64,000 nucleotides of DNA from Chthoniobacteraceae bacterium (GTDB lineage Bacteria > Verrucomicrobiota > Verrucomicrobiia > Chthoniobacterales > Chthoniobacteraceae). The position numbers were made by a program, and so were the translations under genes. The stretch is from NCBI GenBank assembly GCA_947449735.1, contig CANFTB010000011.1, positions 1-64,000 on the forward strand, in the 5' to 3' direction. The notes beneath the pieces were generated by a model. That model did not search any database and was not told the DNA's origin. It saw nothing but the letters and a program-made list of their open reading frames with translations. Numbering within the stretch: the stretch's first letter is position 1; each line of letters begins with the position of its first letter. Shown here piece by piece: positions 32,830-56,167 of this stretch.

Positions 32830-34002
32830 TCAAACCGGCTTCCGTCCCAGCAGCACTCGCTCAGTCCACCCGTTCACGGTCCGCTCCAGCAGGATCCCAA
32901 AGAAACTGAGTGACCAAAGCAAACCGGCCGAAAGCAAACCAAACTGCCACATCCCCAGCCCCCTCACCCGCGGCCCCAGCCAGGTCACCAGCGGCTGGTG
33001 CGTCAGGTAGAGGCCAAAGGAATAAGTCCCGACCAGGCCGATCCACTTGGATAAAAATAAAGACCTTTGCATCAAACCGCTGACCCCGATCACCACGAGC
33101 GAACAGCTCACCGCAGTGTACAAGTCGGCAAAAACATAAGAGAGCGCCTGCCCGTACACGCAGGACACAAAATAGTACAACACGAGCCCGGCTAGGACCG
33201 CCCGGGGACCGAGAATCCAACGTTCCACGCGCGCACTGTCTTTGAAGTGGGCAACGCCGAGGGCCATCCCCAGTGCAAACTCGGGAAGGCGAGAAAGACA
33301 GTTTGCCCCCAGAAGCCAGAGTCCGTTTGACTGCCATTCAATCAACAGCAGGTGCCGCGTCGCCAGCCCCACGCCCACACTCAAAATTAGAAACACGCCA
33401 ACCCCAAACCTCCGGAGCAGCAGAAACAACAAGGGAAACACCGCGTACAATTGAATCAGCATCGCGAAGTACCACCACGCGGCGTTGCCATAGACAAAAT
33501 TGCTTTCGACATTGATCCAGCGCAACCCCGTGAGGCTGATCAAAAACCTTCCGTCTATCGGCTCAAGCCAGGTGAAAGGCATCAGAATCAAAAGAAGATG
33601 CGCCGCCCAATACATCGGATAAAGCCGCAGGAAGCGTTGTTTATACCAATTCCCCCAGCGCACCGGCCCCCGCTCGAAACGCCTCCAAGTCGTCGCCGCA
33701 AGCGACCAACCGCCGAGCATGATAAAAAGCCCGACCGCGTGGAACCCCAGCTCAGAAACGCCAAACCACAACACCCTCAAAAGCGTCTGCACCGCGTCGA
33801 TCGCGGAGTCCCATCCGTGCAATCCAGCCACCTGTTGGATAAAATGTCCCGACGTGGGCGACGGCAAATCCGGATTTGAATCCGTATCGATGTAGTTTGT
33901 GACAAAGTGAAAAAACACCACCCATAAAATTCCGATTCCCTTGGCGATATCCACCCATGCCAGGCGTTGCACCGTCGAAACTACAGAAACCTTTTGCGCC
34001 AT
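32830..34002 (-). CDS. Acyltransferase family 3 membrane protein
   Basis: 390-aa polytopic integral membrane protein with about ten helices. The opening RLAWVDIAKGIGILWVVFFHF is the typical acyltransferase_3 start, with the conserved His of the FFHF box. The W..R/LR motif region (FERGPVRWGNWYKQRFLRLYPMYW) follows. Members transfer acetyl or succinyl groups to cell-surface or periplasmic sugars, e.g. O-antigen or glucan. Substrate unknown. Divergent from the SASA-GH16 gene across 156 bp. Confidence 0.88.
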   Translation of the reverse strand: MAQKVSVVSTVQRLAWVDIAKGIGILWVVFFHFVTNYIDTDSNPDLPSPTSGHFIQQVAGLHGWDSAIDAVQTLLRVLWFGVSELGFHAVGLFIMLGGWSLAATTWRRFERGPVRWGNWYKQRFLRLYPMYWAAHLLLILMPFTWLEPIDGRFLISLTGLRWINVESNFVYGNAAWWYFAMLIQLYAVFPLLFLLLRRFGVGVFLILSVGVGLATRHLLLIEWQSNGLWLLGANCLSRLPEFALGMALGVAHFKDSARVERWILGPRAVLAGLVLYYFVSCVYGQALSYVFADLYTAVSCSLVVIGVSGLMQRSLFLSKWIGLVGTYSFGLYLTHQPLVTWLGPRVRGLGMWQFGLLSAGLLWSLSFFGILLERTVNGWTERVLLGRKPV

Positions 34003-34158: not shown

Positions 34159-36027
34159 ATGAACAAATCCCAATTCCAAATCCTCCTGCCGGCCGCGCTC
34201 CTGCTGCTCCGGAGCGGCCTCACCGCCGCCGACATCCCCGTCCAGTCTCCCAAAGACTACCAGGTCTTCCAAAGAACCGCGGAATCCACCGGCACAGTCC
34301 GCATCCAAGGCAAGGACATCGACGAAGCGGACGCCTGGCAGTACCGGTTCCAGGGGACCGACTTCGCCGGCCAAGCCCTAGATCCCGCCTGGCAGAACTT
34401 CCCAACCGCCATTGAAAAGGGCAAATTTGATTTCTGGACAACCGCACCCGCCGGAGGCTGGTACCAGATGGAAATCCGCGCCCTTAAAAATGGCGCAGAG
34501 CTCGGTTCGGCCCGTATCGAGCATGTCGGAGTGGGCGAGGTTTTTCTCGTCGCCGGCCAGTCGAACGCCGCGAACCACGGTTCAGAAAAGCAATCCCCAC
34601 ACTCGGGCATGGTCTCCAGCTTTAACGGAACCATCTGGCGCACCGCCGAAGACCCGCAGCCCGGCGCGACAGGAAACTCCGGAAGCTTTATGCCGGCCTT
34701 TGGCGACGCCATCGCCGCCAAATTCAAGGTGCCTGTGGGGCTCGTGCCCGTCGCCGTCGGATCGAGCAGCGTGAGGGAATGGCTTCCGGAGGGGGACAAG
34801 TTTCCGCAACAAACCACGACCGGCAAGGGCGTCCGCCCCACACCGGACGGCCAGTGGGAAAGCAACGGCACGCACTACGCCACCCTGACCACCCGGCTTG
34901 AACAACTCGGAAACCGCGGCATCCGCGCCATCCTCTGGCACCAGGGCGAAAGCGACGCCGGACAGGCCCGCAGCGGGCATCCGGCGGACCGCCAGATCTC
35001 GGGCGAACAGTATGCGCAGTTTCTGAGGCGGCTTGTCGAAGCCTCCCGCAAGGCCGCCGGTTGGCCAGTCCCCTGGTTCAACGCACAGACAACCTACCAC
35101 TCGGAACAGGACCCTTCGGACGCCGAATTTAGGACCGCTCAGAGCAGCCTCTGGAAGGAGGGCGTCACCCTTGAAGGGCCGGACACGGACGCCCTGCGAG
35201 CAGAGCACCGCCGGGGCGTGCACTTCAACGCAGCCGGCCTCCAAAAACACGGTGAATTGTGGGCGGAAAAAGTCTCGCCCTGGCTGGCCTCCCTGCCCGC
35301 GAATCCCCCGTCTGAAGGCCCTCCCAAATCCGGATACAAAATGGTGTGGAGCGACGAATTCGACGGAACCGTGATGGATCCCAAAAAGTGGAAACACCGC
35401 TATCCGGGTCCGCGCAAGGACGGCTTCAACGACCCCTCCGCCGTGACCCTCGACGGCCAGGGGCACCTCTCCATCACATGCTCCCGCAAGGACGACAAAA
35501 TCATGGTCGGCATGATCTGCACCGAGGGACTCTTTGAAACAAAATACGGCTACATCGAGGCAAGGGTTCAGATGCAGACGCAGGAGGGCTGGTGGCCTGG
35601 TTTTTGGATGATGAGCCGGTCTGTCGCGAACCCCGATAAAGGCACTGGGGAAGTCGACGACACCGCCCGCAACGGTACGGAAATCGACATATTCGAGTAC
35701 CTCCGGAGCCGCGGAGACCAGATCCAGCACGCACTCCACTGGAACGGCTACGGCAAGGCGCACAAAAGCATCGGAGGCCACCCATCGGCCCCGGGGCTCA
35801 CAAAAGGCTTCCACACGGTGGCCTGCGAATGGACTCCAGACCGTTACACGTTCTACGTGGACGGGCGCAAAACCTGGGAAACAAACACGGCCATCTCCCA
35901 GGTCCCCGAATACATCATCCTCAGCGGCGAGGTCAGCTCCTGGCCCGGGAACATCTCCCGGGCCCAACTTCCCGACTCAGTCATTTTTGACTATGTCCGC
36001 GTCTGGCAGAAGGAGGACTCTCAGTAG
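34159..36027 (+). CDS. Secreted SASA-type carbohydrate esterase fused to GH16 glycoside hydrolase
   Basis: 622 aa with a signal peptide (about 1-23). Residues about 115-370 resemble the sialate O-acetylesterase-related SASA/CE6 fold: nucleophile Ser135 in VAGQSNAANHG, LWHQGESDAG, and His355 in RGVHFNAAGLQKHGE. Residues about 392-620 are a GH16 domain starting MVWSDEFDG, with the catalytic signature EIDIFE (Glu508, Asp510, Glu513) and WWPGFWMM in the cleft. The pairing would deacetylate and cut one acetylated beta-glycan; substrate (laminarin-, agar- or xyloglucan-like) unknown. It is flanked by the O-acyltransferase gene. Confidence 0.9.
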   Translation: MNKSQFQILLPAALLLLRSGLTAADIPVQSPKDYQVFQRTAESTGTVRIQGKDIDEADAWQYRFQGTDFAGQALDPAWQNFPTAIEKGKFDFWTTAPAGGWYQMEIRALKNGAELGSARIEHVGVGEVFLVAGQSNAANHGSEKQSPHSGMVSSFNGTIWRTAEDPQPGATGNSGSFMPAFGDAIAAKFKVPVGLVPVAVGSSSVREWLPEGDKFPQQTTTGKGVRPTPDGQWESNGTHYATLTTRLEQLGNRGIRAILWHQGESDAGQARSGHPADRQISGEQYAQFLRRLVEASRKAAGWPVPWFNAQTTYHSEQDPSDAEFRTAQSSLWKEGVTLEGPDTDALRAEHRRGVHFNAAGLQKHGELWAEKVSPWLASLPANPPSEGPPKSGYKMVWSDEFDGTVMDPKKWKHRYPGPRKDGFNDPSAVTLDGQGHLSITCSRKDDKIMVGMICTEGLFETKYGYIEARVQMQTQEGWWPGFWMMSRSVANPDKGTGEVDDTARNGTEIDIFEYLRSRGDQIQHALHWNGYGKAHKSIGGHPSAPGLTKGFHTVACEWTPDRYTFYVDGRKTWETNTAISQVPEYIILSGEVSSWPGNISRAQLPDSVIFDYVRVWQKEDSQ

Positions 36028-36059: not shown

Positions 36060-38036
36060 TCAGTCCGAGGCGCGCATCCGCTGCGGAAATGCGTTCGCAT
36101 GATAGGCGGCGACCAGCCTCTCCAAAGTGCCGGCGATCTGCCTCAACTCAGCCCCGCGCTGGCTGTCGGCAATCCGTTTGGGAACATCCCACATCCGCAC
36201 GGGCGTGACAGTCGGAATGATGTCGCTGCCCGTGGAGATGGCGGCCTCCACCGACTCAAAGTGGTGATGCATCGCCAGCGATGTACCGTGGGGTTCTATT
36301 AAAAGCGTGAAGCCGTGGTCGCCATAAGCCTCCGAAAAAGCACCGTCGATCGTGATCGCCTTTCCGCAACGTTTCAGCGGCGACTCCCCCTTCTCGAGTT
36401 GCACAGGAACGTGCCCGTTGACCACGAGCCCAACCTCCTTGTCCATGCCGAACTCAGCAAGGATCTTCTCGCAGAACCAGGCCTCGTGAATCAGCGCAAA
36501 GTACGGGTTTTTTGTCTCATGGTGCGTCTCGGAGGCTTCTAAAAAATCCCGTTCAAACGTCGTAATCCGGTCCTTTCCAAACAATGGAGAACGCGGCCCG
36601 CTCCACAAGTACCAAAGCGTATCGAGGGAATCCTGCTCCCGTGTCTCAAGGACCTCGTAAACCATCATCTCAATGGCGTCCATCATCGACCTTCCCGACA
36701 CACTCCGTCCTCCAACCACCATCGGGAGAAACTCCCCGCTTTCATCCACGGGAAGACAGCCGTGAAAAATCAGGTTCTCTTCGCGCCTCAAATACATCGC
36801 CCCGTTCGCAACCATCCAGCGCATCTGGTTCCAAAGAGGCTTGCTCGCCAAAAACGAGTCCCGGATCCGCGCAAGGCAATGCTTCTCGTCCTCCGACAAT
36901 TCATATGGCGACGATGGGTCAACCGTCGGCAGGTGGCTGTCCTTCAATGGATACCGCACGCCGTCCATCAGAATCCCCCCGTCCGCATCGATCCGATGCA
37001 GCAGGCAGCGCCCCTCCATCTCCCACTCGGGATGGCGCCGGATCATCTGACCCTCGAGCTTGAACTGCATGATCGCCGCCGCCTTGTGCATACGCGCAAT
37101 CATCGCCTTCTCCCGCATTCCCCCCGCCTTGGGTTGAAAGCACTCCGCGTGGTCATCTGCATACACCTTCCGCACAAGCGCCTCCAGAGGCTGTAAAGGA
37201 ATGCCGTACCCCTCCTCCAGCTGGGAAAGACGCCGGTACCGCAGCGATATCCGGAGAACGTGGCAGATCAACGCCTCGTGCCCGAGGCACGCCCCGAGCC
37301 ACGCCATATCGTGGTTTCCCCAGATGAAGGAAACCTTCGGCTGCTGCATCAAGTAATCCACCACCTTGTCTCCACGGGGGCCCCTGTCCCAGCAATCGCC
37401 CGCGAGCACAAGCTCCCCCACCGCCAGATTGCGAATCACGCGGCCGGTGAGATGAATCACGTGGAGCATCCGGCCCCGGCGCACGAGTTCGTTGACGATC
37501 GCCTCCACATAACTGCGGTCCCGTTCCGCCGAGGGCGAATGCAGGATCTCCGCAAACAGGTCGTGAAACTCCCCCGGGAAGACCCGGTGCACGTCCTTCA
37601 AACTGTGCCTCGCCGCGAGCTCGCGGACCACTTCGAACAAATAACCCAGCGTGCGCAACGCATAGTCCCGCTGCTGCTCCGCTGTTTTGAGCGAGTCGTG
37701 CAGACGCCCCACCACCTCCGCCGGGTAGAAAATCAGCGTGATCAACTCGTCAAACTCGCCGGCAGAAACCTTCTTCCGGAGCAGGCGCTCCACCAGAGGC
37801 CGCAGTGTTCCCGATGCATTGTTGATCACATGCCGGAGCTTCCTGTACTCGCCATGGACGTCGCTGATCACATGAATTGTCGGCATCGGCAGCGTGAGCT
37901 CAGCGGCGATGCGCGCCATCTCCGCGGTTGCGCTGTCCACGGTTGGAAAGTCGCGGGACAGCGCCTTGAGTCCGACAAGATCCTGGCCCCTCCGGTCCAA
38001 GCCGTGGGGATGTGTGACTTCAAATGGGGTGGCCAT
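36060..38036 (-). CDS. fbp: Class III (Firmicute-type) fructose-1,6-bisphosphatase
   Basis: 658 aa, the long class III form, which has a calcineurin-like metallophosphatase core. Metal-binding motifs are ISDVHGEY (Asp59, His61), LAGDCWDRGP and WGNHDMAW; a later VNGHVPVQ supplies further ligands. It dephosphorylates fructose-1,6-bisphosphate in gluconeogenesis. It stands alone, convergent with the SASA-GH16 gene, so no neighbour sheds light on regulation. Confidence 0.95.
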   Translation of the reverse strand: MATPFEVTHPHGLDRRGQDLVGLKALSRDFPTVDSATAEMARIAAELTLPMPTIHVISDVHGEYRKLRHVINNASGTLRPLVERLLRKKVSAGEFDELITLIFYPAEVVGRLHDSLKTAEQQRDYALRTLGYLFEVVRELAARHSLKDVHRVFPGEFHDLFAEILHSPSAERDRSYVEAIVNELVRRGRMLHVIHLTGRVIRNLAVGELVLAGDCWDRGPRGDKVVDYLMQQPKVSFIWGNHDMAWLGACLGHEALICHVLRISLRYRRLSQLEEGYGIPLQPLEALVRKVYADDHAECFQPKAGGMREKAMIARMHKAAAIMQFKLEGQMIRRHPEWEMEGRCLLHRIDADGGILMDGVRYPLKDSHLPTVDPSSPYELSEDEKHCLARIRDSFLASKPLWNQMRWMVANGAMYLRREENLIFHGCLPVDESGEFLPMVVGGRSVSGRSMMDAIEMMVYEVLETREQDSLDTLWYLWSGPRSPLFGKDRITTFERDFLEASETHHETKNPYFALIHEAWFCEKILAEFGMDKEVGLVVNGHVPVQLEKGESPLKRCGKAITIDGAFSEAYGDHGFTLLIEPHGTSLAMHHHFESVEAAISTGSDIIPTVTPVRMWDVPKRIADSQRGAELRQIAGTLERLVAAYHANAFPQRMRASD

Positions 38037-38110: not shown

Positions 38111-38854
38111 CTAGCGCGAACCCTTTTCAAAAAAGGCTCTCACCCGCGCGCCAAACAGCCTGTAACCCTCTGCATTGAAATGAAGCATGTCCTTTCCAAA
38201 AAGCTCGGCACGCGGCCGGCCGTCGGCGCCGAGCGAAACATCGTAAGCATCGATGTACTTCATCCAGTCGAAACCTTTGGCGTACTCCCGGACGGCCAGG
38301 TTCAACGCCCTCGTTTGCTCATCCTCGCTCCAGCGCGACACGCTCGGAGACAACGCGATGTAAACCAGCTCGGTCTTGGGCAGCGCCGAATGCACTTTTT
38401 CCGCAAGCGCTTTGAAATCAGCAAAAACCTGCTCCACGGACTTCCCCGAATGAAGGTCGTTTCCGCCAGAGCGCACCACGACAACACTCGGGTCGCAAGG
38501 GAGCACCAGACGGTCGACGTAGTGCACCAGGTCAGATATCTGCGAACCGCCGAAGCCCCTGTTCAAGGCAGTGACAGACGGCAGATCCTCCGAGAGCGTC
38601 TTCCATAGTCTTATGGTCGACGAGCCAGTAAATACCACGGCTCCCTTGGGCGGCGGATTGACGCGGTCCTTCGCCTCGAAGGCTGCGATATCAGCCTCCC
38701 AGCGTTCCGGACCTCGAACGGAGTCAGCCGCAAAACACACGGAAGACACAGCGCACAAGGCCACTCCGATGACTGTTAGAACCCATCGAATGCGCCCCGA
38801 AAGTGTTAATTTCGAAATACTACGCGCCGTTGAAAGGGGGGACGGTGTTGTCAT
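38111..38854 (-). CDS. Secreted SGNH/GDSL-family hydrolase
   Basis: 247 aa with an N-terminal hydrophobic segment (about 22-43) ending FAADS, so exported. Block I is VVFTGSSTIRLW (Ser79 in the GDS position), block II NRGFGGSQISD, block III VVVRSGGNDLHSG and block V DMLHFNAEGY. All four SGNH residues are present. Members deacylate sugars or lipids; substrate unknown. Its start lies 24 bp after the stop of the NHL-repeat gene on the same strand, so the two are probably cotranscribed. Confidence 0.88.
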   Translation of the reverse strand: MTTPSPLSTARSISKLTLSGRIRWVLTVIGVALCAVSSVCFAADSVRGPERWEADIAAFEAKDRVNPPPKGAVVFTGSSTIRLWKTLSEDLPSVTALNRGFGGSQISDLVHYVDRLVLPCDPSVVVVRSGGNDLHSGKSVEQVFADFKALAEKVHSALPKTELVYIALSPSVSRWSEDEQTRALNLAVREYAKGFDWMKYIDAYDVSLGADGRPRAELFGKDMLHFNAEGYRLFGARVRAFFEKGSR

Positions 38855-38878
38855 TTGGGGGGGGCGGGTTGAAGTTGC

Positions 38879-39907
38879 TTAGTTGATTACCCTCTTGTAA
38901 CGCTGAACGCGGCGGGCAGTCAGAACGAAACCCACGTACACGCTCTTGCCACCGTCTCCAATGGCGAGACCGTGAGGCCATTCGAAGTCCTCCGTCGTCT
39001 CTGCCGGCCTGGTGGCAAACGAGTCCTGCAACTCGCCCTTCTTGTTGAAGCGACGCACAATTCCCTTCGCCGCACTCAAATTTGAGAGCACATAAACCGA
39101 GCCGGCGTGGTACCGAACACACAGCGGACGTCCGACCTTGCTCCAAGTCGCAATAAGTTCCCCCTCGGCGCTCAACACCTGCACCCAGTGGTTAGACATA
39201 TCGGCGACGTAGACACGGTCTTCATCGTCGACGGCCATGCTGTGGGGGGTATGCAGCTGCACTGTCTCCTCGCCCCTTGCGCCCCAGTCCCCGATCCTCT
39301 GGCCGTCGGAATCAAATCGCACTCCCCGTCGGCTGATCGCCCCATCGGCAACAATGAACGATCCGTCAGAAAACACAGCAACGTCCGTGGGCATCTCCAG
39401 AGGAGTGTCTTTGGTCCCCAACTCGAGCATCTTCACCCCGTCCGGATTGAACTTGAACACCCGTTTCAAGCCCGAGTCCGCCACCCAAAAATTGCCTGCC
39501 CCGTCCACACTGATCTGGTGCGGCTGAAAAAACACGTTCGCGCCCCATGTCCGCAGGATGCGACCGCTTTTCGGATCCACGACAAACACCGCCGGCCGCT
39601 TGATGAACTTCCGCTGAAAGCCTTTCTGCGGATCCCCATGGTTCTCGCCGTGGGAAAGCACCACCACATTCCCATCCTTCGCCACAGCGACGCCGCTCAT
39701 CTGGAACTTTTCAGGATACAGATCTGGGGTGAACACCGGCCAAGACGGATCCAACAGATGACTGTTGACCACCGGAGTTGCAGGAGCAACTGGCGCGACC
39801 GCGGACTGCTTTTCCGCTCCAAAAGTCAGCGCAGGCGACAGCCCAAGCGTTCCCGCAGCTGCGGAAAAGCCACTGATAAACTGACGTCTGCTCAAAACCT
39901 CTTTCAT
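38879..39907 (-). CDS. Tat-exported NHL-repeat (six-bladed propeller) protein
   Basis: About 342 aa from ATG 39907. The twin-arginine signal is SRRQFISGFSAAAG. Propeller blades of the NHL or peptidyl-amidating lyase type are visible: GVAVAKDGNVVVLSHG, ISVDGAGNFWVADSGLKRVFKFNPDG, DVAVFSDGSFIVADG, and MAVDDEDRVYVADMSNHWVQ. No catalytic residues are recognisable, so it is probably a binding protein, with an enzymatic role possible. It is followed at once by an SGNH hydrolase and preceded by a sulfatase, which places it in a carbohydrate-handling context. Confidence 0.83.
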   Translation of the reverse strand: MKEVLSRRQFISGFSAAAGTLGLSPALTFGAEKQSAVAPVAPATPVVNSHLLDPSWPVFTPDLYPEKFQMSGVAVAKDGNVVVLSHGENHGDPQKGFQRKFIKRPAVFVVDPKSGRILRTWGANVFFQPHQISVDGAGNFWVADSGLKRVFKFNPDGVKMLELGTKDTPLEMPTDVAVFSDGSFIVADGAISRRGVRFDSDGQRIGDWGARGEETVQLHTPHSMAVDDEDRVYVADMSNHWVQVLSAEGELIATWSKVGRPLCVRYHAGSVYVLSNLSAAKGIVRRFNKKGELQDSFATRPAETTEDFEWPHGLAIGDGGKSVYVGFVLTARRVQRYKRVIN

Positions 39908-40033
39908 TTCAGATATGTTAACGCCGAACGCAAGGTTTCCACCAACAATCGATCTATTCAGCACAAAAGACTTTTGAAGAGCATTTTAAGCAGAACCCGG
40001 CCACGGCCCGGCCGTCGTCGCCCCCGCCCTTAG

Positions 40034-41485
40034 CTACTGCAACCGTCCCGGCGGACGACTGCCCGTCGCGGAGCGCCCCGACAAGTCATCGCCCAAATCG
40101 GCACGCGCTTTTTCAGCCAATGCCTCCAAGCGCTCCACGATCTTGGGATGCTCATTGGCAACGTCCCGCTCCTCGCCGCGATCCTCCCTCAAATTGTACA
40201 GCGCCCGGCCAGCCTTAAGCTGACGGTACTTGCCTGGCAACCCGTCCAGCCCGGGTTCGGATCCCTCCATGGAACGCGAAGTATGAGCGAACATCAGCTT
40301 CCAGTCCCCCTGCCGCACCGCCTGCAAATCATTGCGGTTGTAATAGTGGTAGTAGCCCTCATGCGGATTCGAGGAGCCCGCCTCCCCGGAAATCAACGGC
40401 CAGACGTCCATTCCATCAATCCGGTGCGACGGGAGGTCCGCCCCCAGCAGCCGCGCGAGAGTGGGAAACACGTCTATCGTCATCAACGGAACTTCACAGA
40501 CTGAATCCGCGGGAATCTTTCCGGGCCACTTCATGATACACGGCACGCGGTGGCCTCCCTCAAAGCTGGTTCCCTTGCCCTCCCTGAAGCCGCCGGACGA
40601 ACCTGCATGGTTTCCGTAAGAAAGCCACGGCCCGTTGTCGGAGGAGAAAATCACGAGCGTATTGTCCTCCAGCCCATTGCGCTTCAACGCCGAGAGAATC
40701 TCGCCGACAGCCCAGTCGATCTCCATGATCACGTCCCCGTAAAGTCCGGCCCCTGACTTACCCTTGAACTTGGCGCTCACATGCAAGGGCACGTGGGGCA
40801 TGTTCGGCGCAAGATAGAAGAAGAAAGGCCGGTCCTTGTTCCTTTCGATAAAACGCACTCCGCGCTCCGCGTATTGCGTCGTCAACTGCTCCTGGTCCGC
40901 GGGCTGGAGGTCCTCTTTCACCACTTTGCTGCCTTCGATTAGAGGCAGAGGGGGATAGCCCCCCTGTTTCATCTCTGGGTGGCGCGGCCACATGTCGTTT
41001 GAATAGGGCAGGCCAAAATACTCGTCAAACCCGTGCTGAAGGGGAAGGACTTCGGGCCTGTCCCCCAGATGCCACTTGCCAGCCATCCCCGTGGCATAGC
41101 CGCTCTTTTTAAAAAGCTTCGCAAGCGTCACCTCGCTGGTGCTCAGCGCAATCTTTGCCCCCGGCCCGAGTGCGCCCGAGAGTCCAATGCGGTTTGGGTA
41201 GCAACCGGTCAACAATGCCGCACGGGATGCGCTGCAAACAGCCTGCGCAACGTGGAAGTCAGTAAACCGCCGCCCTTCGCGCGCAAGCCGGTCCAGATTT
41301 GGAGTGCCGTATCCCTTCGCACCAAAGACCCCGACGTCACCGTATCCCTGGTCATCCGTGAAGATCAGAACCACATTGGGCGGGCGGGTTGCCGGGGCGG
41401 CAGTCAGAGCCTGCGCAGCGAAAAGGAGCGCAAAAACAGACACGGTAACAAGTGCGGGAATGCGAACAGGGGTGGCGGCGTGCAT
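40034..41485 (-). CDS. Secreted arylsulfatase-type sulfatase
   Basis: 483 aa with a signal peptide ending near LTAAP. The sulfatase fold begins PNVVLIFTDDQGYGDVGVFG. The formylglycine motif is CSASR (Cys84); Ala replaces the more common Pro at the third position, a variant accepted in several sulfatases. GKWHLGDRP and SSDNGPW are further active-site segments. The C-terminus (NLREDRGEERDVANEHP) is also typical. It differs from the sulfatase at 20566 in lacking a C-terminal beta sandwich. The NHL-repeat gene begins 126 bp downstream. Confidence 0.94.
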   Translation of the reverse strand: MHAATPVRIPALVTVSVFALLFAAQALTAAPATRPPNVVLIFTDDQGYGDVGVFGAKGYGTPNLDRLAREGRRFTDFHVAQAVCSASRAALLTGCYPNRIGLSGALGPGAKIALSTSEVTLAKLFKKSGYATGMAGKWHLGDRPEVLPLQHGFDEYFGLPYSNDMWPRHPEMKQGGYPPLPLIEGSKVVKEDLQPADQEQLTTQYAERGVRFIERNKDRPFFFYLAPNMPHVPLHVSAKFKGKSGAGLYGDVIMEIDWAVGEILSALKRNGLEDNTLVIFSSDNGPWLSYGNHAGSSGGFREGKGTSFEGGHRVPCIMKWPGKIPADSVCEVPLMTIDVFPTLARLLGADLPSHRIDGMDVWPLISGEAGSSNPHEGYYHYYNRNDLQAVRQGDWKLMFAHTSRSMEGSEPGLDGLPGKYRQLKAGRALYNLREDRGEERDVANEHPKIVERLEALAEKARADLGDDLSGRSATGSRPPGRLQ

Positions 41486-48226: not shown

Positions 48227-50599
48227 CTAGCGCCTTTCTAAAACATCCTCACCCTTTCGTTCTTTGAAAGCATGCAAAACAATCGCCAGCGTGACCACCG
48301 ACGACAGCGGCATCACAATGGAGGCCAGAAGCGGATGCATCCGTCCGAATAAAGCCAGCGAGATGACAACTACATTGTAGAGCGTGGTGAAGCACAGAAC
48401 CCTCCGGCCCAGGCCATTCTTAAAAACAGCCATCTCCAAAAGCTTCCGAACGCCCGAAAGCCCCCGGCCTAGGTAGTAAAAATCCGCCCTCTGCTCCAGA
48501 ACGCCGCGGTCGACAGCTGGAGTCCCCGTCACAAGGCTCTCGGCAAAGGCGAGCGAATCGTTGGCGCCGTCACCCAGCATCAGTGCGGAATCCCTCCCCC
48601 CGCGGTTTGCCAGCCAGCGCGCCTTGTCTTCGGGGGTCTGCGCACCGTCGGCAGCCTCGGCCCCAAGATCCAGATCAGCCGCCACGGCGGACACTCGCAA
48701 GGGATGGTCGCCGCTCAGAATGTGAACCGCATACCCGGCGTCCCGCAAAGCTCCCACTTCTTCCACCGCGCCCGGCCGGAGCTTCTCTTCAAACTCAAAA
48801 ACAGCAACCACCCTGCCGCCACAACCAAACACAGTCCCCTCGGGGAGAAGTGCCGCTTGAGAGCTTTCCAACACCCAGGACGGCCTCCCCAGACGCCAGA
48901 TGCGCCCCGATCCATCCCGCCACTCCACCCCGTACCCTGCACGCTCCTTTACCGCATAGTCCTCGGGAATTTGAGGGAGAGGAAACACGCCCAGCGCCTC
49001 CCGAAGGCTGGTGGCAGCCGGGTGCATTGAGCGCGAAACCAGCAAACGCAAGACCCCCTCCGCTTCGTCATCAAGGCTTCCCAGTCCGCTTCCTGATTTC
49101 AGGCGAAGCACTTCACCGGTCAACGTCCCGGTTTTATCAAACACGATGGTCCTCACCCGAAGCAGGCGGCTCCAGATACCGGACTCACGCACGAAGACCC
49201 CGTGATCCTTCATGCGCGCGGCCGCCAGATCCGCGAGCAGCGGTAACGCCACGCCGCTAGCGCAGGGACAAGAGACGACCAGCACCGAGATGCAAACCTG
49301 CAACGCGGCCTGAAGCCCCTGGCCTTTCGCAATCCAAAACGCAAAGCCCGCCGCCGCAATCAGCAACACGCATAGCAGATACACAAGAATGAACCGCTGC
49401 ACGCCCTCGTGCACCTCGGCTTTGACGGCGGGGGCCTCAAGCAATTTCGCGAGCAATGAGTCCGACCAGTTCTCCAGAGCCTCAAGCTCCAGCGGACTGC
49501 CGCTCAAATTGATAGATCCCGATGCGACGGTCTGCCCGGCGTGGGCATGACGAGCGTCCGACTCGCCGCTGATCCATTCCATTCCAAACAGAGCCTCACT
49601 CGAACGCAGCAGTGACCTCACCGGCACAGGCGACCCGCCGGGAACAGTGAACACCTCGCCCTTCGCCGGCTTTAATCGCGACTGCGGCGCTTGAAGCACC
49701 CTATTCCTATTTCTCTCCAGCGCAGTCTGCTGCACCCAGCGTCCGACCAGCATCAAAAACGTAAAGACACTGACGAAGTCGAAGTACACCCCCTCCCCGC
49801 TTCCCGATCTCCACGCAAAAATAGAACCCCCATAGGCCGCCAGCAAGCCTATGGCAATGGGGAGGTCCATGTGCACGCAACCCATCCGCAGAGCGTTCCA
49901 CGCACGTCCCACAAAATACGACGCGCCCACAAACATAGACGCGGTCGCGCATCCCAAGGCCCCCTTTAGAAAAAACGCCGAAAGCCCATCATCGAGCCGT
50001 AGACCGCAGTAGCCCGGAACAGTAAACAGCATCGCGTTCATCGCCAGCGCCCCACAGACGCCCATGCGCAGCACCAACCCCCGTGTCTTCAGCGCTCGGC
50101 CCGAGCCGTCGCCGGGCCCGGTCTGATAACCGAACTTCTGCAGCAAGGCCGCAAATTCGACCGCCTGAAAAACATCCGGCTCCACCCGGAGTCTTGCGGT
50201 TCCCCCCAGGAGATCGACGTCAATTTCAATCCCCCCCGGCCGGCCCTCAAAAACCCTCCGGATCAGCCACACGCAAGCGATGCAGGACATGCCCTGGACC
50301 TCGATCTCAAAACTGCCCGCAAACTCGCGGCAAAGAACGCCAATCCACTCCAGGTTGCGCCATTGGAAAAAACCCGCGAGAACAGGCGTCTGTGGACCTT
50401 CCCTCAATTCGTAAAACCGCGCCAATCCCTGGTCTTGAATCAACTCGTACACAACCCGGCATCCGGAACAGCAGAAGACCCGTCCGTCCGAAAGCACGAT
50501 GCCCTCCGCATCGGCGGAGACCCCGCAATGGAAGCACAGCGAGGCACTCAACAGTGGAGCTACGGCGGACTGCTGCGGATTAGAGAGCGCAACAGCCAT
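48227..50599 (-). CDS. ccoI: CcoI/FixI-like copper-transporting P-type ATPase
   Basis: About 790 aa from ATG 50599. Cys motifs at the N-terminus (CFHC 22-25, CCSGC 43-47) form the ATPase-associated metal-binding domain. An HMA domain carries CxxC at 106-109. The transmembrane CPC motif is VVSCPCASG, the phosphorylation site is DKTGT and the hinge is GDGANDS. CcoI exports Cu to the periplasm for cbb3 oxidase maturation. The start overlaps the tauE-like gene by 20 bases. It closes the operon from ccoS. Confidence 0.94.
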   Translation of the reverse strand: MAVALSNPQQSAVAPLLSASLCFHCGVSADAEGIVLSDGRVFCCSGCRVVYELIQDQGLARFYELREGPQTPVLAGFFQWRNLEWIGVLCREFAGSFEIEVQGMSCIACVWLIRRVFEGRPGGIEIDVDLLGGTARLRVEPDVFQAVEFAALLQKFGYQTGPGDGSGRALKTRGLVLRMGVCGALAMNAMLFTVPGYCGLRLDDGLSAFFLKGALGCATASMFVGASYFVGRAWNALRMGCVHMDLPIAIGLLAAYGGSIFAWRSGSGEGVYFDFVSVFTFLMLVGRWVQQTALERNRNRVLQAPQSRLKPAKGEVFTVPGGSPVPVRSLLRSSEALFGMEWISGESDARHAHAGQTVASGSINLSGSPLELEALENWSDSLLAKLLEAPAVKAEVHEGVQRFILVYLLCVLLIAAAGFAFWIAKGQGLQAALQVCISVLVVSCPCASGVALPLLADLAAARMKDHGVFVRESGIWSRLLRVRTIVFDKTGTLTGEVLRLKSGSGLGSLDDEAEGVLRLLVSRSMHPAATSLREALGVFPLPQIPEDYAVKERAGYGVEWRDGSGRIWRLGRPSWVLESSQAALLPEGTVFGCGGRVVAVFEFEEKLRPGAVEEVGALRDAGYAVHILSGDHPLRVSAVAADLDLGAEAADGAQTPEDKARWLANRGGRDSALMLGDGANDSLAFAESLVTGTPAVDRGVLEQRADFYYLGRGLSGVRKLLEMAVFKNGLGRRVLCFTTLYNVVVISLALFGRMHPLLASIVMPLSSVVTLAIVLHAFKERKGEDVLERR

Positions 50600-51188
50600 G
50601 GGCGCCTCCCATCCAAAGCCGCCAGGCGAGCACGCCTGTTGCACACCACAACAGGCCGCCCTGTAAATAGCGCAGCCGCTGGGGCGAGACTTTCCGCAAG
50701 AGATGCAACACCCCCCCTTGGATCGCCACATACAAAACCACCGTCCCGAGCCCGAAACAAAGCAACAGCAGCCCGCCCCCGACCGCAGATCCCGACGCGG
50801 CCGCAGCGCCCAGCATCAACCACAAAGGACCACAAGGGATCAAGGGCGTGAGCCAGCCAAGATTCCGGTCCAGTTTTGCACGCGTCCGCAGACGCTCTGC
50901 GAACGCCGGAACAGGAAGGCGCCGCTCCCACCCGAGAGCCATCATCACAAACACCGCCAGCAGGACCCAGGGAGCGAACCGCACAGGCCCCTGTTGCAGC
51001 GACCCAAGCAGCCATTCGCCAACTCCTCCAAAAGCGCCGCCCAGCAACGTATAAGCCACAACCCTGCTGCCATGGTACTCCAGCGCACGGACCCGCACCG
51101 CGCACGCCAGCGGCCCGCACATCAGCGCACAGTGCGCCCCGGTTCCGAGTCCTGCTAAAAAGGCGGCGAATGTGGTTTCAATGTGCAT
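50580..51188 (-). CDS. Sulfite exporter TauE/SafE-family membrane protein of cbb3 operon
   Basis: 202-aa membrane protein of about six helices. HCALMCGPLACAV near residue 20 is the conserved Cys-containing first motif and PCGPLWLMLGAAAA the second half, as in the CcoI-linked (CcoH2-like) TauE/SafE proteins, suggested to aid copper delivery. Its start overlaps the stop of a 49-aa gene and its 3' end overlaps ccoI, so expression is tightly coupled. The role in copper handling is inferred from neighbours. Confidence 0.85.
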   Translation of the reverse strand: MHIETTFAAFLAGLGTGAHCALMCGPLACAVRVRALEYHGSRVVAYTLLGGAFGGVGEWLLGSLQQGPVRFAPWVLLAVFVMMALGWERRLPVPAFAERLRTRAKLDRNLGWLTPLIPCGPLWLMLGAAAASGSAVGGGLLLLCFGLGTVVLYVAIQGGVLHLLRKVSPQRLRYLQGGLLWCATGVLAWRLWMGGAHGCCAL

Positions 51189-53770: not shown

Positions 53771-56167
53771 TCAGGGACGTGATGGTTCGTCGGTTAATCC
53801 CAGTTCACCCGGGGATGGCGCCGGAGCACCCGCAACCTCGGCAGCAGCAGTCACAGGTGCTTGGTGCGCGGCCGTCTTACCCAAGCGCTGCAGGTAGGCG
53901 ATCAGCGCCACGATGTCGCGATCCGCCTGGACGGCGGCGCCGGCGGTCCCCAGGTCGGCGGCGATCCCGTCCGCCTCTGTACGCATCTCGGCTAAAATAT
54001 CGGCCGACGCCCTCTCCGGATACGGCACCCCCAAGCGCCGCTGGACAGCGATGCGCCCCGGGATCACCTCCCAATCGGCCTTCTCCTTTAAGAGCCAATC
54101 GTAGTTGGGCATCGTCGAGCCGGGGGAAGTCTGGCGGGGGTCCCGCATGTGGTGGAAATGCCAAATGTTGGGATATTTGCCCCCCACCCTCGCCAGGTCC
54201 GGCCCCGTCCGCTTGGACCCCCACTGAAAGGGATGATCATAGGCGCTCTCACCCGCCTTCGAATAGGGCCCGTACCGCAGCACATCACCTGCAAGAGTTC
54301 GGATCATCTGCGAGTGGCAGTTGTAACACCCCTCCTTCACGTAAAGGTCTCTTCCGTAAAGCTGCAGGGGCGAATACGGCTCCTGCGCCACGCCCTCCAT
54401 GAGGTTCTCCTTGCTCATAAGCACCGTGGGCAGGATTTGCGCGACGCCGCCGATCAACACCGCAATCGTGGTTAAGACCGAAAAAGGCAGCGCATTCGCG
54501 AGCAGCTTGTCATACCAGTCCGTCCAGCTCGCACCGGTCAGATCCTTGTGTAAAAACGCCCCCATGACGGAGGCCACCACGCCCCACAAACACAGTCCGC
54601 TCGGCAGTCCGTCAAGCGCCCCCCAGCCCAGCGCGCACACAATCAACGCCAGCGCGTAAAGCACAGGGGGATTCAAGAGTCCCCGCCGGAGCGTGAGGCC
54701 GTCCTGTCCCTCAGGCAGTGCAGCAACCTCGATGTAGGCGTCGTTTTTCTGCGCCCCCTTGATGGTCTTGAACACGTTCCACGCCATCAGAACAAACCCC
54801 GAAAGGTAGAGCATGCCGCCAAAGGCACGCATGTGCATGAGCCAACGCGTCGAGGTCACCGCATCCAAAAAGTTTGGATACGCCAGCACCGAACCGCTGT
54901 CTTTCGTCGCCGACAGCATCAACCCCTGGGTGATGCCCGACACCCACATCGCCGCCACGTAAAGGAGGATGCCCACCATCCCGAGCCAAAAGTGCATCTG
55001 AGCGGCGCTCGTGGAATGCAGCGGACGTTTCCACAGACGCGGAAGCAGCCAGTAAATCATACCCGCCGTCAAAAACCCGTTCCATCCCAGCGCTCCAGAA
55101 TGCACGTGCCCGATCGTCCAGTCGGTGTAATGGGAAAGCGCGTTCACCGATTTGATCGAGAGCAGGGGCCCCTCGAATGTCGCCATTCCGTAAAAGGTGA
55201 CAGCCGCCGCAAAAAACTGGAGCACCGGCTCGGTCCGCACCCGGTTCCAAACCCCGCGAAGCGTAAGCAAACCGTTCAGCATCCCGCCCCAGGAGGGCGC
55301 CCACAGCATCAGCGAAAACACCATTCCAAGCGACTGCAGCCAATTCGGCAGGGCAGTGTTCAGCAGGTGGTGCGGCCCCGCCCAGATATACAAAAAGACA
55401 ATCGACCAGAAGTGCACGATCGAGAGCCGGTACGAATACACCGGACGCTCCGCCGCCTTGGGCACGAAGTAGTACATGATCCCCAGCATCGGAGTGGTTA
55501 AAAAAAACGCCACCGCGTTGTGGCCGTACCACCACTGCACCAGCGCGTCCTGAACCCCCCCGAACACCGGATAAGCGTGCGTCCAGCTCGTGGGAATCTG
55601 CAAATGATTGACGATGTAGAGGACGGCGATCGTGATGATCGTGGCGATGTAAAACCACACCGCGACGTAAAGGGTCCGCTCCCGCCGGCGTTGGAGCGTC
55701 CAGAAGAAGTTGATCCCAAAGATCACCCAGACGACGGCCACCGCAAGGTCGATCGGCCAGATCAACTCGGCGTATTCCTTGCCCCGGGTCAACCCCATGG
55801 GAAGCGTAACAGCTGCGGCGACGATAATCAGCTGCCAGCCCCAGAAATGAACGGCGCTTAAAAGGTTGCTCGCCAGCCGCGCCTTCACGAGGCGCTGGGT
55901 CGAATAGTAAACTCCGGCAAACATCATGTTGCCCACAAAGGCAAAGATCACTGCGTTCGTGTGCAGCGGCCTGAGTCGCCCGAAAGTCAGCCAAGGAAGG
56001 CCGGCGTTGGCCTGCCAGAATGCCAACTGCGTGGCAATCAGCACGCCCACCAGCATCCCCACGATCCCCCAGAACAGCGACGCCAGACAGAACTGGCGCA
56101 CCACCCGGTCGTTGAACTCGATCCGCACCCTTGCGTTGCCCACCGCATTCCCCCCGTTCTGAATCAT
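53771..56167 (-). CDS. ccoNO: Fused CcoN-CcoO cbb3-type cytochrome c oxidase subunit I/II
   Basis: 798 aa. Residues about 1-490 are the twelve-helix CcoN catalytic subunit, with heme and copper histidines in helices such as HTNAVIFAF, HNAVAFFLT and HVHSGALGWNG. A short linker of helices leads to the CcoO monoheme part with CYNCH at 614-618, followed by GPDLARVGGKYP and the axial Met region STMPNYDWL. Fusion of ccoN to ccoO occurs in several PVC and Bacteroidetes lineages. It reduces O2 with high affinity. The ATG overlaps the ccoS stop (ATGA). Confidence 0.95.
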   Translation of the reverse strand: MIQNGGNAVGNARVRIEFNDRVVRQFCLASLFWGIVGMLVGVLIATQLAFWQANAGLPWLTFGRLRPLHTNAVIFAFVGNMMFAGVYYSTQRLVKARLASNLLSAVHFWGWQLIIVAAAVTLPMGLTRGKEYAELIWPIDLAVAVVWVIFGINFFWTLQRRRERTLYVAVWFYIATIITIAVLYIVNHLQIPTSWTHAYPVFGGVQDALVQWWYGHNAVAFFLTTPMLGIMYYFVPKAAERPVYSYRLSIVHFWSIVFLYIWAGPHHLLNTALPNWLQSLGMVFSLMLWAPSWGGMLNGLLTLRGVWNRVRTEPVLQFFAAAVTFYGMATFEGPLLSIKSVNALSHYTDWTIGHVHSGALGWNGFLTAGMIYWLLPRLWKRPLHSTSAAQMHFWLGMVGILLYVAAMWVSGITQGLMLSATKDSGSVLAYPNFLDAVTSTRWLMHMRAFGGMLYLSGFVLMAWNVFKTIKGAQKNDAYIEVAALPEGQDGLTLRRGLLNPPVLYALALIVCALGWGALDGLPSGLCLWGVVASVMGAFLHKDLTGASWTDWYDKLLANALPFSVLTTIAVLIGGVAQILPTVLMSKENLMEGVAQEPYSPLQLYGRDLYVKEGCYNCHSQMIRTLAGDVLRYGPYSKAGESAYDHPFQWGSKRTGPDLARVGGKYPNIWHFHHMRDPRQTSPGSTMPNYDWLLKEKADWEVIPGRIAVQRRLGVPYPERASADILAEMRTEADGIAADLGTAGAAVQADRDIVALIAYLQRLGKTAAHQAPVTAAAEVAGAPAPSPGELGLTDEPSRP

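Follow-up and report, generated by a model that had tools for sequence, protein, structure and literature searches.

The window analysed here, a stretch of 64,000 nucleotides, stems from a Verrucomicrobiota lineage of soil and freshwater. It contains an ORF that starts with ATG and encodes, in one frame, a SASA-type esterase domain followed by a GH16 glycosidase domain (Table 1). Both domains scored above the curated Pfam cut-offs: SASA (PF03629) matched residues 127-372 with an E-value of 3.9e-21 and 76.2 bits (cut-off 24.8), and Glyco_hydro_16 (PF00722) matched residues 458-603 with an E-value of 1e-18 and 67.9 bits (cut-off 22). The N-terminal beta domain gave no Pfam match. A first, sequence-only reading of this DNA had postulated one exported chain carrying an esterase and a GH16 domain, and this was borne out for both domains; as the signal peptide is a putative one, the protein is probably exported from the cytoplasm. 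AlphaFold modelling of the full-length protein with 44 homologues yielded a mean pLDDT of 89.7 and a pTM of 0.76, with low confidence at the linker (residues 382-387) and the termini. The fusion gene is present in a single copy in the genome; away from this locus, the genome encodes a second GH16 domain and several further SASA domains. A scan of the fusion region for promoters and terminators disclosed nothing exceeding shuffled sequences.

Table 1. Features of the fusion gene and its divergent neighbour (positions refer to the window).
Feature	Position	Strand	Basis and remarks
SASA-GH16 fusion gene	34159..36027	+	622 aa; ORF, Pfam, AlphaFold model
Putative Sec signal peptide, residues 1-24	34159..34230	+	Hydrophobic N-terminus with AxA-like end (...LTA/AD); hydropathy, by inspection
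N-terminal beta-strand domain, residues 25-126	34231..34536	+	Secondary structure in models
SASA / SGNH-type esterase domain, residues 127-372	34537..35274	+	Pfam PF03629; fold neighbours XacXaeA, SIAE, CE20, 1zmb
Predicted catalytic Ser135 (GQSN)	34561..34563	+	Same residue in every homologue examined apart from L072 (see text)
Predicted catalytic His355	35221..35223	+	Motif alignment; DxxH acid position is Arg352
Linker, residues ~379-392 (~14 residues)	35293..35334	+	Low AlphaFold confidence
GH16 domain, residues 393-622	35335..36024	+	Pfam, profile and fold matches
GH16 motif EIDIFE, residues 508-513	35680..35697	+	E508 nucleophile and E513 acid/base by family rule
PF01757 acyltransferase, divergent neighbour	32830..34002	-	Pfam, synteny; judged to lie outside the system

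Downstream of the fusion gene, a long FBPase_2-type fructose-1,6-bisphosphatase gene (36060-38036, minus strand) is convergent with it and ends 32 bp away. Genes for a GDSL esterase, an NHL-repeat protein and a sulfatase lie in a row approximately 2 kb downstream (38111-41485, minus strand) and possibly constitute a second small degradation cluster. Elsewhere in the window, an ORF at 53771-56167 (minus strand) unites COX1 and FixO domains, i.e., a CcoN-CcoO fusion of a cbb3 oxidase, near a gene for a heavy-metal P-type ATPase (48227-50731).

The esterase half had been thought to possess an intact Ser-His site. The two residues are indeed present, and the half retains the motifs GQSN (S135), GSSSVREW, WHQGESD (E264/D266) and GVHF (H355), but a canonical triad is missing: the acid of a DxH or DxxH motif, two or three residues ahead of His355, is absent, these positions being held by Gly353 and Arg352, respectively. 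The DxxH position is occupied by K, Q, A, S and A in other fusions (see below) and by D or E in most solitary homologues. Thus, judging from the alignment, this position does not seem to be an essential acid in the fusion group, and the site is apparently a Ser-His pair. Esterase activity is nevertheless plausible, since solved relatives do without a direct acid: the mammalian SIAE acts as a Ser-His dyad, and in CE20 a water molecule is located between His and Asp (PMC12313940). D342 or D344 within the near-invariant sequence GPDTD are candidates for orienting His355. Ser, GESD and His were found in every fusion with one exception, L072 (7291-8979, plus strand; genome G390), in which the GH16 half is intact, but the SASA half has shrunk and no longer contains GQSN, GES or the catalytic His. 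The esterase half therefore appears to be dispensable in this relative.

As the list of fold neighbours obtained with the whole model (VIA) was filled by GH16 chains, the SASA half was modelled (mean pLDDT 93.6, pTM 0.92) and searched alone. Its top neighbour was XacXaeA (XAC1771, PDB 7kmm), a proven O-acetylesterase of xyloglucan oligosaccharides that was first annotated as a sialate esterase and acts on many acetylated sugars (PMC8245568). With the CE20/XacXaeA-type esterases, which are often misnamed sialate O-acetylesterases, and other SASA O-acetylesterases, the fusion protein shares the N-terminal beta domain in front of the SGNH domain as well as GQSN and GES. CE20 is defined by an SGNH domain with a beta-sandwich on its N- and C-terminal sides (PMC12313940). 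By contrast, the fusion protein possesses only the N-terminal beta domain and lacks the C-terminal beta-sandwich, the inserted ancillary domain and the DxH/DxxH acid; in the models, its SASA half is followed by a helix, the linker and the GH16 domain. A sialic acid substrate, as the name SASA might imply, found no support; XacXaeA bore the identical misnomer.

The EIDIFE glycosidase site reported for the C-terminal half proved to be intact and is an ExDxxE site of the beta-bulge type; HWNGY with its conserved His is likewise retained. In profile searches the GH16 half ranked solved endo-beta-1,3-glucanases at the top (3atg, 137.8 bits), while the kappa-carrageenase 5ocr (79.4 bits) and the porphyranase 4awd (78.0 bits) scored about 60 bits lower. 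Structural alignment (VIA-align) gave a Z-score of 28.4 and an rmsd of 1.9 over 215 residues for 3atg; several glucanases differed by no more than one Z unit, and the carrageenases came next at approximately Z 25. The laminarinase-type endo-beta-1,3-glucanases of GH16_3 (3atg, 2hyk, 4crq) share the beta-jelly-roll, the beta-bulge motif and the conserved His after it. They differ in that the identity to 3atg is only about 33% and that the signature position reads WPG...WMM...WPG (WSA...WAG in many relatives) instead of WPA...WXX...WPX, a pattern described as 'largely conserved', not absolute (PMC6827312); the signature is thus partly kept. On these profile and fold similarities, the GH16 half is nearest to endo-beta-1,3-glucanases and its target is most probably a beta-1,3- or mixed beta-1,3/1,4-glucan, agar, carrageenan and xyloglucan being less likely. 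An assignment as kappa-carrageenase was rejected since the respective NCBIfam model scored 43.8 against a cut-off of 350.

The sequence-only reading had suggested a survey of genomes for the same fusion. Full-length counterparts were found in four other genomes of the genus (L034, L035, L068 and L069 with 71%, 72%, 67% and 65% identity, respectively) and in two genomes of the Verrucomicrobiaceae (L036, 52%; L105/L119, 51-53%), the latter locus emerging from a search of 68 genomes of this family. Because 387 genomes sampled across the phylum contained no further full-length fusion, we regard it as rare. Plasmid and phage collections yielded matches to one half only, and solitary SASA relatives are common. 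For same-genus pairs with computable dS, dN/dS amounted to 0.10-0.19 (SASA) and 0.04-0.10 (GH16), with synonymous sites mostly near saturation; both halves are thus under purifying selection, and within the genus the GH16 half is the better conserved one. Selection on both halves and full-length recurrence in other genomes argue that the fusion is real and conserved rather than an accident of assembly. Two incomplete copies may reflect assembly damage: L071, within the genus, comprises the SASA half only, and L070 (genome G479) lacks most of GH16 and carries an in-frame deletion between two WPG motifs of this domain. G479 has been assigned to another family, and the contig in question matches one of G399 with 98-99% identity, so that its fusion copy is probably a mis-binned contig of genus g1. 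On the trees, the SASA-GH16 fusion needs two changes, and a single clade was not rejected (AU p 0.09 for SASA and 0.23 for GH16). A published fusion of GH16 with SASA or CE20 was not found in the open-licence literature, which does not prove its absence. It is the pairing that is new; both kinds of enzyme were already known.

Each half has related versions with other partners. The gene L014:1393-3351 (plus strand), which is the same as L095:8389-10347 (G316, same class), encodes a predicted secreted chain with a related GH16 domain and an SGNH-type esterase as well, but the domain order is reversed and the esterase belongs to Lipase_GDSL_2 instead of SASA; its Ser motif GGSI and DGTHP are intact. 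Since the GH16 domain of L014 was placed in another group of the tree than the clade of the window, this esterase pairing most likely arose separately. On L095, two sulfatase-like genes are located upstream of the GH16-GDSL fusion. The same SASA family is joined to an alpha/beta-hydrolase (Peptidase_S9-like) and not to GH16 at L073:7941-9842 (minus strand; G389).

How might the two halves work together? We assign a probability of about 0.5 to the reading that the fusion protein is exported, combines two enzyme domains and attacks polysaccharide from outside the cell, with both halves acting on one beta-glycan. The SASA/SGNH half would use its Ser135-His355 pair to free the beta-glycan of esterified O-acetyl groups or other small acyl groups by hydrolysis, and the tethered GH16 half, a retaining endo-beta-glycanase, would cut the chain bared by deacylation; with the halves joined, deacylation and cleavage would take place side by side outside the cytoplasm. 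Both activities, the shared substrate and the nutritional role are what we infer as most likely. The proposal of a bifunctional deacylase and beta-glycanase, already contained in the sequence-only reading, agrees with the conserved sites, the purifying selection and L014, whereas L072, with its eroded esterase beside an intact GH16 half, speaks against it. Acetylation is not known from laminarin or from other plain beta-1,3-glucans, and therefore we do not name a matching natural substrate. That the GH16 clade acts on an undescribed, naturally O-acylated beta-glucan, which drove the repeated fusion to esterases, of the SASA type in two Verrucomicrobiota families and of the GDSL type in L014, strikes us as an unlikely extension of this reading. 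An influence of acetylation on cutting by GH16 enzymes is documented for succinoglycan in Sinorhizobium, where acetyl and succinyl groups affect cleavage by ExoK, a beta-1,3-1,4-glucanase, and ExsH (PMC1403797). ExoK, ExsH and ExoZ differ from the fusion in that they are separate proteins of an exopolysaccharide synthesis system with no fused esterase.

Alternatively, the protein could serve a mixed matrix, in which the GH16 half cuts a beta-glucan and the SASA half removes acetyl groups from another polymer, e.g., an acetylated hemicellulose or exopolysaccharide of the kind present in detritus or cell walls. This would be in line with the close SASA relatives, which are mostly solitary or combined with other partners such as the S9-like hydrolase of L073, indicating no general link between this esterase and the substrates of GH16. 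It would also agree with the broad activity reported for CE20-type esterases, not only for XacXaeA: all CE20 members tested showed some activity on acetylated xylan (PMC12313940). However, the halves are separated by a short linker, and L014, in which a second, different SGNH esterase was joined to a related GH16 domain, favours a shared substrate. We consider separate substrates less probable than a shared one, but regard them as the main rival reading.

The protein could also be mainly a GH16 glycanase whose SASA half is weakly active or on its way to becoming a binding or scaffold domain. Three observations point in this direction: the fusion clade has lost its DxxH acid, L072 lacks the esterase catalytic motifs completely, and within the genus the GH16 half is more strongly conserved. 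On the other hand, the catalytic Ser and His and GESD are kept in all other fusions, the SASA half is under clear purifying selection, and a Ser-His dyad, or an acid bridged to His by water, suffices in SGNH/SASA relatives (PMC12313940), so that a degenerating esterase is quite unlikely.

Finally, we studied the genes next to the fusion. The presence of a divergent membrane acyltransferase gene was confirmed (PF01757, gap of 156 bp). Its adjacency had raised the option of a self-made acylated glycan, to which the neighbour would add acyl groups that the fusion protein removes while trimming the chain, and for which ExoZ and ExoK provide a precedent on succinoglycan. The two genes adjoin only in the window: no acyltransferase homologue was detected in the flanks of L034, L035, L036, L068, L069, L119 and L071, with contig ends limiting L069 and partly L035 and L068. 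Among 40 genomes of the family, the acyltransferase was confined to G000, G395, G396 and G399; the copies of G396 and G399 reside on other contigs than the fusion, and in G395 no fusion was found. Conversely, G403 and G400 (82% complete) possess the fusion, and the acyltransferase was not found there. On its own strand, the acyltransferase gene is situated upstream of genes including homologues of KdsA (read from the sequence), LptA and LptB, a context that makes a role in lipopolysaccharide at least as plausible. On synteny and co-occurrence, the acyltransferase was thus rejected as a functional partner; it is probably a chance neighbour, and the remodelling of a self-made glycan is very unlikely.

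The genes beside the fusion vary by genome and comprise a sulfatase gene in two genomes, an MFS transporter gene in one, dehydrogenase genes, succinyl-CoA synthetase-like genes and others, and no transporter or other glycanase gene was consistently found next to it among the loci examined. Since the neighbours differ, the gene behaves as a stand-alone one, which would fit a scavenging enzyme better than a locus for surface-glycan assembly. The orthologous sulfatase genes diverging from the fusion in G403 and G400 (82% identical; L035:570-2138 and L068:268-1905, both minus strand) were considered as partners acting on a sulfated substrate. This candidate is weak, as orthologues are located on other contigs in G396, G399 and G000 and are also present in G395 and G397, two genomes that yielded no fusion, and each genome encodes 28-63 sulfatases.

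The favoured reading, a deacylating endo-glycanase, is readily testable, since the halves can be produced separately and a single substitution can inactivate either of them. If both halves share one chain, this would point to acylated beta-glucan as a real nutrient, and the fusion would be a one-protein means of finding it; otherwise, a poorly cultured lineage would have provided another multidomain enzyme for polysaccharides.
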